Of a stretch of 33,458 bases of DNA, positions 24,966 through 30,067 are shown piece by piece. Position numbers and translations under genes: made by a program. Below the pieces are notes generated by a model. The model made no database searches. It saw only the letters and a program-made list of their open reading frames with translations, and was not told the DNA's origin. Position 1 is the first letter of the stretch. Each line of letters starts with the position of its first letter. This DNA comes from Gemmatimonadaceae bacterium (GTDB lineage Bacteria; Gemmatimonadota; Gemmatimonadetes; Gemmatimonadales; Gemmatimonadaceae), in the NCBI GenBank assembly GCA_025930755.1, contig JAICOJ010000026.1, forward strand, positions 1 through 33,458, in the 5' to 3' direction.

Positions 24966-25053
24966 AGCTCTCGGAGCCTTGCCGACGGGGGTTGCGCGGC
25001 CGATACTCGCGATCGGTGTCATCCCCAGTCGCCTTCGACATGACCGTCGCCTG

Positions 25054-26916
25054 ATGGAGCGGCCGGAGTCTCCGCGCACGACCGGTGAGGCGGGCCCCGC
25101 CGACCACGGCCCGCCATCGTTAGGTCCCGACGTCAGCGATCCGGTCGGCTTGCTCCTCGCGGAGCCGGTCCCACCCGCGTCTGTCGGCACATGGCTCGGG
25201 CGTCGTGCGCGGAACGCGGCTCGCCGCACGGCGCTGCTCGGGATCGCCGGAGGGCTCGTCTTCGTGGGGATGCTGGTGACACTCATCGTCATTCCGCACC
25301 GAGCGCGCCGGGCCGCGGCGGCCATCATGCCGCGTCCGGGCGAGCGTCCCGATACCGCCCGCCTGCGAGCCACCGACGCCGCCGCCGTGCAGGAGCTCTC
25401 GCGTGCGGAAGCCGAGCTGGCGAGCACGCGAGCGCGTGCTGCGCGTCGAGCACTGCCGCCACCTCCCGATACGCTCCCGACGGCGGTGCGCCTGCGACGA
25501 GACTCGCTGCAGGTGGCCATCACACGACTCACGACACTTCTCGAGCGGGCCGAGGCCGCCCCGCTGTTCGCCTCGTATCGCGCGTTAGGCACGACGCCCG
25601 ACCTTCAGGCGGATCCCCGCGTCCGGGCGCTCCTCGACTCCTTGGCCGAGATCGAGCGACAGCGGGACGCCTTCGGCGCAACCGGAGGGGTCGATCCGTT
25701 GTTCGTCGCGCTCACGTCGCGCGCGGGCGAGCTCGGCCGCGCGCTCCAGCAAATCGGTGCCGCACGTCGAACGGCGCTGCGCGACGAGGTCGAGCGACTC
25801 CGGCCGCCACCGCGTCCGGTCGTGACGCTTCCGCCCATCGATACGATGCCCGCCGTCGCCTCACGGGACTCGGCTCGTGCGGCGCTCGGTCGCGCGCGCG
25901 CGGCGCTGGCGAGCGCGCTCGACCGCAACCGCCAGCTCGACGCCCGCCAGCAGCGCGCTCGAGAGATCTCGGCCATTGCGGCCTCGCCGCCGGCGATGCT
26001 CGCGGCCTCGCTCATCTTCGGCCTTGCGGCGGGATTTGCGATCGCGCTGATCGCGGAACTGCGAAGCCCTCGAGTCGCCGACGCGCGCGAGATCGAGCGA
26101 CTGGTCGCGCTGCCCGTGATCGCGCGCGTGGGCCCCACCGAGCGCGTGCCGGAGCGTTCGCGGCGCCGGGCCGACCGCGAGGTGGCACCCGTCATCGACC
26201 AGGCCACGGACACCTATCGTCAGCTGTACCTCTCTCTCGCGGATGCCGCTGCCAATCTCCCGGTCATCGCGATCATCGGCGACGAGCCTGCCGTGGTCGC
26301 CACGATGGCCGTCAACCTCGCGGTGGCCGCATCGCATCAGGCGCGACATCCGTTGGTGATCGACGCAGACGTGACCGTGCACTCCGTCTCTGCGGCGCTC
26401 CACATCCCCCCCGCCCCCGGTGCCACGGAGTCGCTCACCGGGGAGGTGGAGTGGCCCGAGGTCATCATCCACGCGATTGTCGGCCGCGACCGCACGATCG
26501 ATGTCATTCCCGCTGGCCGCCGCCGGACGCCGAACGAGGTCTCCGCGCGCACCCTTCGCGAGGCAGTGGCGCACCTTGCCCGACGATACGACACCGTTGT
26601 CGTGAGCGCGCCGTGGCTGCGCGAGGTTTCGCTCGAGGAGACGGTCTCGGCGTCGCCAGACATCGTGGTGGTCGCGCGCACCGGACGCACCACAGCGGTG
26701 GGGCTCAAACGCCTTGTGGCTGCGATACATCAGGCGGGAGGCTCCATCCGAGGTGTGGTCGCCTGGGATGCCCCGGACCCCGCCATTCCCTTCCTCTCGG
26801 AAATCCCCGAACGAACCTCATTTCTCCCGCGCTATGCCTCGATGCGGCGCGGGGATGGGCAAGGTGAAACAGACGCGAACGAACCCCGGCAAGACGTCGT
26901 GACCGAGGAAGATTAG
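25054..26916 (+). CDS. Wzz/BY-kinase-like chain-length protein with degenerate ATPase domain (620 aa)
   Basis: The architecture is that of a polysaccharide co-polymerase fused to a bacterial tyrosine-kinase domain: cytosolic N-terminus, TM1 (about 60-80), a long Arg/Ala-rich periplasmic helical region (90-310), TM2 (313-335), then a CpsD/MinD-like domain (400-580). The domain keeps its fold cues: the helix AVNLAVAASHQA, Walker A' region PLVIDADVTVHSVSAAL (433-449), and strand YDTVVVSAPW (512-521). However, the P-loop position reads IIGDEPAVVATMAVN with no GK[ST], and the Walker B aspartate is replaced. There is no C-terminal tyrosine cluster. It is probably a pseudokinase that regulates or scaffolds exopolysaccharide export. 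ATG 25054 is chosen; the frame is open from 24979. No other polysaccharide gene is in the window. Confidence 0.82.
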   Translation: MERPESPRTTGEAGPADHGPPSLGPDVSDPVGLLLAEPVPPASVGTWLGRRARNAARRTALLGIAGGLVFVGMLVTLIVIPHRARRAAAAIMPRPGERPDTARLRATDAAAVQELSRAEAELASTRARAARRALPPPPDTLPTAVRLRRDSLQVAITRLTTLLERAEAAPLFASYRALGTTPDLQADPRVRALLDSLAEIERQRDAFGATGGVDPLFVALTSRAGELGRALQQIGAARRTALRDEVERLRPPPRPVVTLPPIDTMPAVASRDSARAALGRARAALASALDRNRQLDARQQRAREISAIAASPPAMLAASLIFGLAAGFAIALIAELRSPRVADAREIERLVALPVIARVGPTERVPERSRRRADREVAPVIDQATDTYRQLYLSLADAAANLPVIAIIGDEPAVVATMAVNLAVAASHQARHPLVIDADVTVHSVSAALHIPPAPGATESLTGEVEWPEVIIHAIVGRDRTIDVIPAGRRRTPNEVSARTLREAVAHLARRYDTVVVSAPWLREVSLEETVSASPDIVVVARTGRTTAVGLKRLVAAIHQAGGSIRGVVAWDAPDPAIPFLSEIPERTSFLPRYASMRRGDGQGETDANEPRQDVVTEED

Positions 26917-26992
26917 GATCGTCTCATAACTAGACGGCCCTTCGTCGGTACTCGAAATCCTGAATGCCCGTCAACCAATTGCGAGGCGAACC

Positions 26993-28189
26993 ATGCGCGC
27001 GACGCTGCCGCTTGGATTGGCTGGGCTGATCATGAGCTTTCTCGGGTGCGGTGAGCCACCGACGGGCGTTCTGGCCCCTGCCACGCCAATTGGCCCGCCG
27101 CCGACCGCCGTCGCCACGCTGAGAGGTACCGTCGATCTCGATCGAGGCACTCTGGAGTTCGCGCCCCTCGTGCCGCACGGCCTCCCGGGATTCGCTCCAG
27201 CCATCTACGGCGACCAGAACGTCAACGTGCGCCTGTACAATTCCCCGGTCGTCGTCGACAGCACCACGACTACATGGCGCTGGACCGCAAGCGTCGGTGT
27301 CCGCAACATGCGCCCACATCCGATCGGAGACGAGGAAGCGTCGGCAGCGCCCCTCGATACGATGGGCCTGTTCGTCTTTTTCGTTCAGGAGCCGACCGTC
27401 GGCCAACCGTGCAGCGGGTGCTTCGTGCGCATCGCGAACTTTCAGGGCACGATGAGCTTCGACGCGCCGCAGCGGAAATACTTCCACTGGCCGGAGCGAC
27501 TCGGTGAGATGGGCTCGCCACTCGGCGATACCACCGGTACCCGGCATTCTTGGACGTTCGAGACGAGCGCGGGCGTGCGATCCTTCTCATTCGCGGTGCT
27601 GGTCTCGGCCGCCTGGCCGGCGCCGTACGAAAGCCGGTGGCGAGTCGAGTACACGGCGGATGCTCTGCCAGGGAGCGCGGCGCAGGCGTGGAAGTTTGGA
27701 GGCACAGGCGGTAACGCGAGCGTGAGCGGCGGAAGTCTGTTGCTTCGCGGACGATTTTCCGGGCTCTTTTATCGTCGTGATCCCATCGCGCCGACGCAGG
27801 ACGCGTACGTTCACGGGGTGGTGCGCTTCAACGGAGGGGGCTCGCAGCCAGAGTTAGGTCTCATCCTCAGCGATCGCGCCAAGCTGATCGCTATCGGCGT
27901 CGGAAACGGAGTGGTTGGACTCATATCGAACTCCGGGACTTTCCTGTCCGGCACCACGTCCTCGCTGGGCAGCGGAGCCCACGAGCTCCAGCTGCGGAAG
28001 TACGCAGCCGACAGCGCCGTATACTTCGTGGACGGGGTTAGACGTGGGGCCGCGTCGTATGGCGCGCTCTCACCGGACACGTTCACACCGCAACTGTCGT
28101 CCGTGTCGTTCGGCGGACTTCCCACGACCGAGGGGAGCAACTCGACCTGGGACAGCGTGATCTACGAGATCGGGGTCGCGTCGCCGTAG
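26993..28189 (+). CDS. Hypothetical exported lipoprotein (398 aa)
   Basis: Signal peptide with lipobox FLGC (Cys19). The start is supported by GAGG upstream of ATG 26993. The first half (about 35-210) is beta-rich with a CSGC pair in GQPCSGCFVRIANF and blocks such as TTTTWRWTASVGVRNM. The second half (about 230-398) resembles a concanavalin/LamG-like jelly roll: GGSLLLRGRFSGLFYRRD, YVHGVVRFNGGGSQPELGLILSD, and a terminal WDSVIYEIGV. It may bind carbohydrate or a surface polymer, fitting its place after the Wzz-like gene, but there is no catalytic signature. Separate promoter or operon membership with 25054-26916 cannot be decided. Confidence 0.78.
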   Translation: MRATLPLGLAGLIMSFLGCGEPPTGVLAPATPIGPPPTAVATLRGTVDLDRGTLEFAPLVPHGLPGFAPAIYGDQNVNVRLYNSPVVVDSTTTTWRWTASVGVRNMRPHPIGDEEASAAPLDTMGLFVFFVQEPTVGQPCSGCFVRIANFQGTMSFDAPQRKYFHWPERLGEMGSPLGDTTGTRHSWTFETSAGVRSFSFAVLVSAAWPAPYESRWRVEYTADALPGSAAQAWKFGGTGGNASVSGGSLLLRGRFSGLFYRRDPIAPTQDAYVHGVVRFNGGGSQPELGLILSDRAKLIAIGVGNGVVGLISNSGTFLSGTTSSLGSGAHELQLRKYAADSAVYFVDGVRRGAASYGALSPDTFTPQLSSVSFGGLPTTEGSNSTWDSVIYEIGVASP

Positions 28190-28300
28190 CGATCTCCGCT
28201 TACTTCGTTCAGCCGTCATTCGTCCTCTCTGCGCCGCGACCTGTGTTGCTCGAGGCGCGGTTCCCGCCTGAACACCCCGCCGCGTCTCTCCGACAGCTCC

Positions 28301-28570
28301 ATGCACTACACCATCTCGCCTGACGCGGCCTTTGCCGCGGTCGACGATGGCGCCGTCGTGCTGCACATGGGCACCAAGCGCTACTATTCCCTCAACGAGA
28401 CCGGCACGTTCGTGTGGCGGCGGCTGGAAGATGGGGTTCCGCGCTCGGAGATCGTCGCACGGGTGGTCGACGAGTACGATGTGGGAATCGTCGAGGCCGA
28501 GATGGCAGTGACGCGGCTGCTCGAGGAGCTGGTGCAGGAGCAGCTGATCCATACCGCCGAGCGGGCGTGA
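28301..28570 (+). CDS. PqqD-like RiPP recognition element protein (89 aa)
   Basis: A stand-alone PqqD-family winged-helix protein of the lasso-peptide B1 type, which binds the leader of a precursor peptide. Seen: DGAVVLHMGTKRYYSLNETGTFVWRRLEDG, the classical PqqD pattern (YxLNxTGxxVWxxL), then helices EIVARVVDEYDV and AEMAVTRLLEELVQEQLI. Length is typical. Its stop overlaps the GTG of the B2-like gene in GTGA. The 110-base gap before it contains no convincing precursor-peptide ORF. PqqD homologues also occur in non-lasso contexts, so a RiPP product is not proven. Confidence 0.93.
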   Translation: MHYTISPDAAFAAVDDGAVVLHMGTKRYYSLNETGTFVWRRLEDGVPRSEIVARVVDEYDVGIVEAEMAVTRLLEELVQEQLIHTAERA

Positions 28571-28950
28571 TTGAACGGGCGTTGGCGGTAGCGGCGACGG
28601 TCGCGGTGCCGGTAGCGCTCCGAGCGCTGCCGTTCCGCGTGACGCTCGCGTTGTGCGACGCGTGGCCGAGAACGCCGGGCGCCCGCGCGAGTGCGCCAGC
28701 ACTCGCGTTTCGCGTGGACCGCTGGATGGCGAGTGGACGTGCATGGTGGCGTCCGACCTGTCTCACGCGGACGCTGGTGCTCTACACGATGCTTCGACAG
28801 CATGGCCACCGTCCGCGCCTGCACATTGGCACCGCGGGTCCGGCGCACCACTTCCACGCCCACGCCTGGGTATCGTTAGGCGGGCTGCCAGTGGCGGAGC
28901 TCGGCGCATCGGTCGAGGACTACCGCGAATTGCTCACGCACGATGCGTAG
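28567..28950 (+). CDS. Lasso-peptide B2-like transglutaminase-fold protease (127 aa)
   Basis: The family cleaves leader peptides in lasso-peptide maturation using a Cys-His-Asp type triad. Seen: CLTRTLVLYTMLRQHGH with the catalytic Cys, RLHIGTAGPAHHFHAHAWV with the catalytic His, and VAELGASVEDY at the end. A hydrophobic N-terminus (ALAVAATVAVPVALRAL) could be membrane-associated. GTG 28567 overlaps the PqqD-like stop by 4 bases, and the stop overlaps the next gene by 8 bases, so the three are translationally coupled. The usual third enzyme, an asparagine-synthetase-like cyclase, is absent from the window. Confidence 0.9.
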   Translation: MIERALAVAATVAVPVALRALPFRVTLALCDAWPRTPGARASAPALAFRVDRWMASGRAWWRPTCLTRTLVLYTMLRQHGHRPRLHIGTAGPAHHFHAHAWVSLGGLPVAELGASVEDYRELLTHDA

Positions 28951-29971
28951 CGCCTCTCCGTATGACGTGATGGTCGCCCTGCTCGCCGGGAACGCAGAGC
29001 AGACACCAGCGGGCACGGTGACGCGCGCGTTCGCCGCTCCCGTGGCCTTTTGGCAGCGTGCGCTCGTTCTGGAGGGCTGTGCCGTTCAGCTCGATCGGGC
29101 TCTGCGAGCATCGTCACTCGCACCCCGCGCGCCATCCCCACTGCGGGAACTCCTGCGGGACTCGACCGCGCGGGCGGTGAGGCAGACACTGACACTGCCT
29201 GGTCAGCTGACCGAACTGGCGACCGCCGCGCGTGAGCTCGGCATCCGAATCATGGTGCTCAAGGGTGCGGCGCGAGCGCTGACGGCGAGGATCCCCGCCG
29301 CGCGGTCGATGTCGGACATCGATGTACTCACCGCTCCCGATGATGCGGGACGGCTGCACCAGTTCCTCGCGCGCCGTCTCGGCTATGAGCCGCTTTCGAC
29401 ATCCCCTGAGCACCACCTGCCAACCCTGAGGCGCGCGGGCGCGCTGCCAATCGAGGTTCACGTTCGACTGGGACCCCGTCCGACCGGTCTCGATACGCGG
29501 ATCTGGCGTGACGCGCGTGCGGTGAGCGGGACCGATCTCGTGGCTCCGTCACCGACGGCGACCGTGTTGCACGCGCTCGAGCACGGGGCTCTGGTCCATT
29601 GGGCGGTGCGGTATCGCCTGCGCGATCTGCTCGACGTGGCCGACGCGTGGAGCGCTGACGTCGACCGCGACGAGGTCGCGGGTTATCTGCGCGGCCACCT
29701 TCAGCGCGTGGCCCTCGAGACGATGATTGGAGGAGCCCGGTCCTTCGCGCCGGACATTCCGGCGGGTCGTCGATCGGCCTGGCGTACCATTCGCCGGGTG
29801 GCGAGGGCACGACACTTCTTCGCCGCGCACGTCGCCAATGACGCTGTCGCGACGTCGTTATGCATCGCCAGCGGTCTGCTGGCCGAGGCATCGCCACGGG
29901 CGCTGCTCCGGCCTGCCAGGCTGGCGCTCTTCGGTGTCAACCAGGCTCGCCTCGTTCCGACGGAAGTGTAG
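28943..29971 (+). CDS. Nucleotidyltransferase-like protein (NTP_transf_5 type, 342 aa)
   Basis: Predicted nucleotidyltransferase-fold enzyme. The core is GIRIMVLKGAARALTARIP ... ARSMSDIDVLTAPDDAGRL, with the paired aspartates of the DxD-type active site, followed by YEPLSTSPEHHLPTL and IEVHVRLGPRP. The C-terminal half is helical with HALEHGALVHWAVRYRLRDLLDVADAW. The gene overlaps the lasso-B2-like gene by 8 bases. Members of this family recur beside PqqD and B2 genes, where modification of a peptide or carrier with a nucleotide or phosphate has been suggested. The substrate here is unknown. Confidence 0.88.
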   Translation: MRSASPYDVMVALLAGNAEQTPAGTVTRAFAAPVAFWQRALVLEGCAVQLDRALRASSLAPRAPSPLRELLRDSTARAVRQTLTLPGQLTELATAARELGIRIMVLKGAARALTARIPAARSMSDIDVLTAPDDAGRLHQFLARRLGYEPLSTSPEHHLPTLRRAGALPIEVHVRLGPRPTGLDTRIWRDARAVSGTDLVAPSPTATVLHALEHGALVHWAVRYRLRDLLDVADAWSADVDRDEVAGYLRGHLQRVALETMIGGARSFAPDIPAGRRSAWRTIRRVARARHFFAAHVANDAVATSLCIASGLLAEASPRALLRPARLALFGVNQARLVPTEV

Positions 29972-30067
29972 GAACAGCCGGTTCGGCGCCGCATAACCGT
30001 TGGCTGCTGCGAAAGTGCGCGAAACCCAGTATCGTTACGCGCACCGCCACGCTCTCGGGACCAGCGC

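Follow-up and report, generated by a model that had tools for sequence, protein, structure and literature searches.

Three overlapping genes in the window, the whole 33,458-bp stretch of DNA that was analysed, encode a PqqD-type recognition element, a lasso-type B2 protease and a nucleotidyltransferase; judged from sequence, they probably make up one half of a non-lasso RiPP system, the half that would recognise and cleave the leader and supply the nucleotidyltransferase, with the other half on a separate contig of the same genome, C136. The window spans the full length of contig C165 in a draft assembly of 4.27 Mb in 275 contigs, and whatever lies just outside it can therefore be tested only genome-wide. 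The system is apparently undescribed; no description of this combination in Gemmatimonadota was found in the open-access papers searched, and its nearest described counterpart is the LPP system of Bacillota (PMC13381572, 2026).

Genes were called with a custom gene caller on the draft assemblies, and the three ORFs, their families and their overlaps of 4 bp (PqqD/B2, 28567-28570) and 8 bp (B2/nucleotidyltransferase, 28943-28950) agreed with the sequence-only reading of this DNA. The first gene (28301..28570, forward strand) encodes an 89-aa PqqD-family RiPP recognition element (PF05402, E=1.4e-17) whose nearest solved structure is TbiB1 (8.5e-20); the peptide-binding residues, the loss of which had been named as a refuting observation, are largely kept, since 10 of 12 pocket positions listed for PbaB1 (PMC13381572) are identical or similarly hydrophobic. 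The second gene (28567..28950, forward strand, GTG start) encodes a 127-aa B2-type transglutaminase-like cysteine protease (Transglut_core3 PF13471, E=3.3e-16; NCBIfam lasso B2 NF033537, E=1.5e-16); the Cys and His noticed earlier, Cys65 and His99, are invariant in an 11-sequence alignment, and the third residue of the catalytic triad, Glu in the window protein, is variable. Its structural model (pLDDT 83.8) gave weak Foldseek matches, headed by a putative cysteine protease and with transglutaminases among them. The suggested resemblance of the triad to a RiPP leader-binding and cleavage unit is supported. The third gene (28943..29971, forward strand, alternative start 28970) encodes a 342-aa nucleotidyltransferase of the NTP_transf_5 family (PF14907, E=1.5e-28), with the active-site motif LKG...SDIDVL that is kept in relatives; orthologues in the genomes G003, G051, G044 and G018 are 39-45% identical, that of G003 being the closest, and a same-genus genome (81% complete) yielded no match. 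PDB sequence searches with the B2 protease and the nucleotidyltransferase of the window returned no matches.

Upstream on the same strand lie a gene for a Wzz/BY-kinase-like membrane protein (24979..26916, start at 24979 or 25054), which matches the NCBIfam XrtA-associated tyrosine autokinase family with 47 bits, under the family cut-off, and a gene for a secreted lipoprotein, here termed LP (26993..28189), with the lipobox FLGC and no Pfam domain. The window LP shares 31-40% identity with the LPs that accompany the system in G003 and at six further loci, and a low-confidence model (pLDDT 59.6) compared by Foldseek hints at a lectin-like jelly roll in its C-terminal half. As reported before, no cyclase, transporter or precursor was found in the gaps 26917-26992, 28190-28300 and 29972-30067, and a precursor concealed in these gaps was rejected on this ground; an asparagine-synthetase-like macrolactam cyclase was found neither in the window nor at the C136 locus. 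The 111-bp gap between LP and the triad (28190..28300) is where relatives carry a precursor and an HprK-like kinase, and G003 a radical SAM enzyme and a kinase: the gene order is Wzz-LP-precursor-HprK-PqqD-PD40 in loci L052-L055 and L057, and precursor-LP-radical SAM-HprK-PqqD-B2-NTP in G003. Cupredoxin-like and ispG genes flank both the window locus and its positional relatives, and in L052, L053 and L055 the Wzz-to-PD40 series stands between homologues of the window-flanking genes; from this gene order between the same flanks it follows that the window lacks what C136 supplies.

Contig C136 carries an apparent operon of a SPASM radical SAM enzyme, an HprK-like kinase, an 81-aa precursor and a PD40 propeller lipoprotein. 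The precursor, with the leader part RPWVAPALTRHASLTALTL and a predicted core QYPPQ...GSTGFFP that is unlike the Gly-rich majority, was identified by the profiles A2 (E=4.8e-5) and A3 (E=1.3e-6), in line with the earlier suggestion that the target of the triad is encoded elsewhere. No PqqD occurs near this operon or anywhere on C136, and none of the B2 matches of the genome falls on this contig; in tetranucleotide profile, C136 resembles the window (correlation 0.990) as other contigs of the genome do. The locus in G003 unites both halves: its contigs C315 and C37 share an overlap of 609 bp, and the joined locus reads precursor-LP-radical SAM-HprK-PqqD-B2-NTP::PD40; given the identity of 94%, the two contigs probably stem from different strain variants within a metagenome assembly. 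LP, PqqD, nucleotidyltransferase, radical SAM enzyme and kinase of the window genome are closest or near-closest to those of G003; in the trees the radical SAM enzymes of the two genomes group together (support 99), and G003 is the nearest row by path for the PqqD and for the kinase. Synteny and phylogeny are thus the basis for the view that the two halves, unlinked in this genome, would act jointly.

A PqqD profile, built from the window and five relatives and searched in 395 genomes of the phylum, sets apart a high-scoring subfamily (bits > 83) in 30 genomes; lasso and other PqqDs score below. An HprK-like kinase is found near 26 of these 30 loci, B2 near 16, a radical SAM enzyme near 13, the Wzz-like gene near eight and NTP_5 near about nine, after four antisense matches had been removed from a raw tally of 13 that was inflated by an antisense seed (L037_06). 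The four loci lacking a kinase comprise L056, L062 and L069, which reach a contig edge near PqqD, and the window as the exception; among the kinases, 26 of 30 ORFs keep the His-Lys-Asp-Asp pattern, a motif reported for lasso kinases (PMC9266682). Most of the 30 loci also encode secreted proteins, PD40 propellers among them; the LP tally overlaps with PD40 proteins and is therefore not read as the number of LPs. None of these loci has a gene labelled as a cyclase. HprK-like kinase, recognition element and nucleotidyltransferase occur within one locus in G003, L037, L038, L039, L041 and L051. A scan of genome contigs with one narrow PqqD pattern returned six records, five titled Gemmatimonadota/Gemmatimonadetes and one Bacterium HR33. 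A single ORF combines NTP_5 and the PD40 propeller in G003 (L035 8918-10807) and in G051 (L036 3143-5122), although PD40 proteins otherwise look secreted.

Small ORFs at the PqqD-subfamily loci share the leader WxxPx[LVI]; none of the tested precursors matched a Pfam or NCBIfam model above cut-off. Type I leaders follow the pattern [RK]xWxxPx[LVI]...LTxLT and precede a usually Gly-rich core with STVF or a similar sequence at its end; type II leaders read RRPWxAPQLxxHxSMxVLTQ, and their loci mostly have no B2 nearby. A Thr occupies position Trp+15 in 39 of 41 motif-bearing matches, a count that includes the profile-seeding loci, and the Tyr-to-Thr distance in the lasso leaders of the window genome is the same; lasso precursors characteristically have Thr at -2 (PMC10885120), and assigning position -2 in the precursor family presupposes the lasso cleavage site. 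Of the 30 genomes that have the PqqD subfamily, 24 also have a precursor, vs. two of 365 genomes without it, an association that is partly circular since seed loci are included; among non-seed genomes the counts are 9 of 15 vs. 2 of 365 (p=6e-13). An Asp/Glu acceptor at core position 7-9 is missing from many type I cores, for example QTGPGIPGGGGPGGGGSTVII; in the C136 core, residue 9 would be Asp. Weak precursor matches lacking partner genes, such as L095, were set aside. Type I precursors can be multicopy, with five or six in each of G260, G300, G325 and G387, and in L097-L110 some adjoin LP-like proteins, with neither PqqD nor B2 in the surrounding sequence that was read.

The genome contains three PqqDs, namely that of the window, one in a lasso cluster (C40) and one in a PqqD/radical SAM set (C223). 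The other strong B2 matches are terminal on contigs C40 (L043) and C207 (L044), which share sequence and join into the order PqqD-B2-cyclase-two precursors-kinase-ABC-NTP_5. The sequence-only reading had left room for an ordinary lasso cluster with precursor and cyclase just beyond the window, and had called for a genome-wide search for lasso precursors and asparagine synthetases; the lasso cluster of this genome is complete and self-contained, and the triad as one part of a split lasso cluster was rejected. The two options then offered, a target encoded elsewhere and a system other than lasso, hold together; the accompanying idea that the nucleotidyltransferase works on the cleaved peptide, as opposed to the leader-bound one, is so far not supported. 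The four asparagine-synthetase homologues on C261 were also dismissed as candidates, their neighbours reading as glycosyltransferases and sugar-nucleotide enzymes rather than RiPP genes. The lasso precursors begin MYEKPRV... and VYEKPKV..., and the cluster sits between ribosomal-protein and elongation-factor genes, as it does in G054 (L042).

The same cluster raises the question of whether the triad consists of accessory or spare lasso parts, with its B1/B2 processing lasso precursors or with the C207 cyclase turning the C136 precursor into a lasso. The B1 and B2 families are the same, a cyclase and two precursors are available in the genome, and the Asp at position 9 of the C136 core would suit such an outcome; yet the lasso cluster already owns a PqqD and a B2, its leaders read YEKP vs. 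WVAP on C136, many type I cores are devoid of any Asp/Glu, and the PqqD-subfamily loci have no labelled cyclase, which together make lasso involvement improbable. Decay after the loss of kinase and precursor is more doubtful still: the 111-bp gap at the very site of these genes in relatives and the patchy distribution would fit a remnant, but the overlapping ORFs are intact, active-site and pocket residues are kept, and the absent genes are intact on C136.

The Wzz-like gene had also raised the possibility of a link with exopolysaccharide, in which the Wzz-like protein, the lipoprotein and a glycan-directed nucleotidyltransferase would serve exopolysaccharide assembly and PqqD and B2 would process a regulator. 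The gene is indeed a conserved neighbour, with seven close homologues including that of the window and one more distant, and it also lies upstream of LP in L052-L055, L057 and L061; the possible lectin-like fold of LP and the location of LPP clusters in capsule loci (PMC13381572) point in the same direction. Against this, the nucleotide-binding domain is conserved but degenerate, without GK[ST], and Walker A is missing in all seven members checked; no glycosyltransferase or flippase cluster was seen near the triad, Wzz accompanies just eight of 30 related loci, and precursor peptides exist. The neighbourhood part of the earlier suggestion thus stands, the missing Walker A weakens the remainder, and a role in exopolysaccharide assembly appears unlikely.

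The two-contig RiPP system shares with LPP a discrete recognition element, an HprK-like kinase and a nucleotidyltransferase (a set distributed here over two loci), a [Y/W]xxPx[V/L] leader, the absence of a macrolactam cyclase and the presence of lasso clusters in the same genome (PMC13381572). LPP, said to be restricted to Bacillota, has a SipW-like signal peptidase, an MsbA-like exporter, YxxP leaders and no radical SAM enzyme (PMC13381572), whereas the window system has B2, radical SAM, secreted lipoproteins and WxxP leaders; no SipW-like signal peptidase was recognised by eye among the genes called at the window and C136 loci, where B2 is found instead. With lasso systems of the paeninodin/pseudomycoidin type it has in common B1 (PqqD), B2, HprK-like kinase, nucleotidyltransferase, and the leader motif [Y/W]xxPx[L/V/I] with its Thr spacing; it differs in the presence of radical SAM, in having no cyclase labelled at related loci, and in its cores, where an Asp/Glu acceptor at position 7-9 is not conserved. 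Weak similarity links its kinase, PqqD and radical SAM enzyme to components of the SynChlorMet (ScmC/D/E/F) and HPr-rel-A systems, namely ScmC, ScmD, ScmF, HprK_rel_A and PqqD_rel_X, all NCBIfam scores being far under the cut-offs (bits/cut-off: ScmD 23.5/100, PqqD_rel_X 17.6/35, HprK_rel_A 38.8/200, ScmF 69.2/400); in contrast to these systems, the precursor is a different one, and B2 and NTP_5 are added.

The sequences themselves show the parts, how they are linked in relatives, the split, and the leader motif with its spacing; the catalytic steps, their sequence in time and the surface role are inferences. As a working model, PqqD would bind the 81-aa precursor at its WVAPAL motif in the way that lasso B1 proteins bind [Y/W]xxPx[L/V]; on the bound precursor, the kinase would phosphorylate a Ser/Thr of the core, and a further core modification would come from the radical SAM enzyme. 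B2 would then cut two residues past the leucine preceding the Trp+15 Thr, i.e., after the residue following Thr, to release a core starting with QYPPQ. The nucleotidyltransferase might place a nucleotidyl or sugar group on the phosphopeptide, analogous to a possible role of PsmN in pseudomycoidin; PsmN, the annotated nucleotidyltransferase of that lasso cluster, is needed, directly or indirectly, for hexoses on phosphoserine (PMC9266682). The product may finally work at the cell surface together with co-encoded lipoproteins. On balance, such systems may well form a RiPP family of their own, encountered in this analysis only in Gemmatimonadota, in which lasso-type leader recognition and cleavage are applied to a linear and often Gly-rich peptide modified by kinase and radical SAM enzyme, with one enzyme set serving several scattered precursors and surface products acting with co-encoded lipoproteins.

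If this model holds, lasso-type leader binding and B2 would work without a lasso cyclase and be coupled to radical SAM chemistry, and the LPP concept would reach beyond Bacillota with another protease. Systems of this kind can be split across unlinked loci and are therefore missed by cluster-based mining. The co-occurrence of YxxP (lasso) and WxxP (window system) leaders in one genome is the reverse of the LPP/paeninodin pairing reported in Bacillota, so that the proposed rule of leader discrimination can be tested directly; since precursor and enzymes are identified, reconstitution is practical.

The PqqD set on C223 (L048 4744-11600) occupies a polysaccharide-type locus with Wzz, NTP_5, HprK-like kinase, a signal-peptidase/S24-like protein, PqqD and SPASM radical SAM, and includes a 58-aa Cys-containing peptide with a YIKPSL leader; compared with the window system, it looks nearer to LPP in protease and leader. 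Finally, two related genomes carry tandem genes (L063 4087-4621; L066 5781-6603) for apparently secreted, Cys-rich proteins of ~75 aa.
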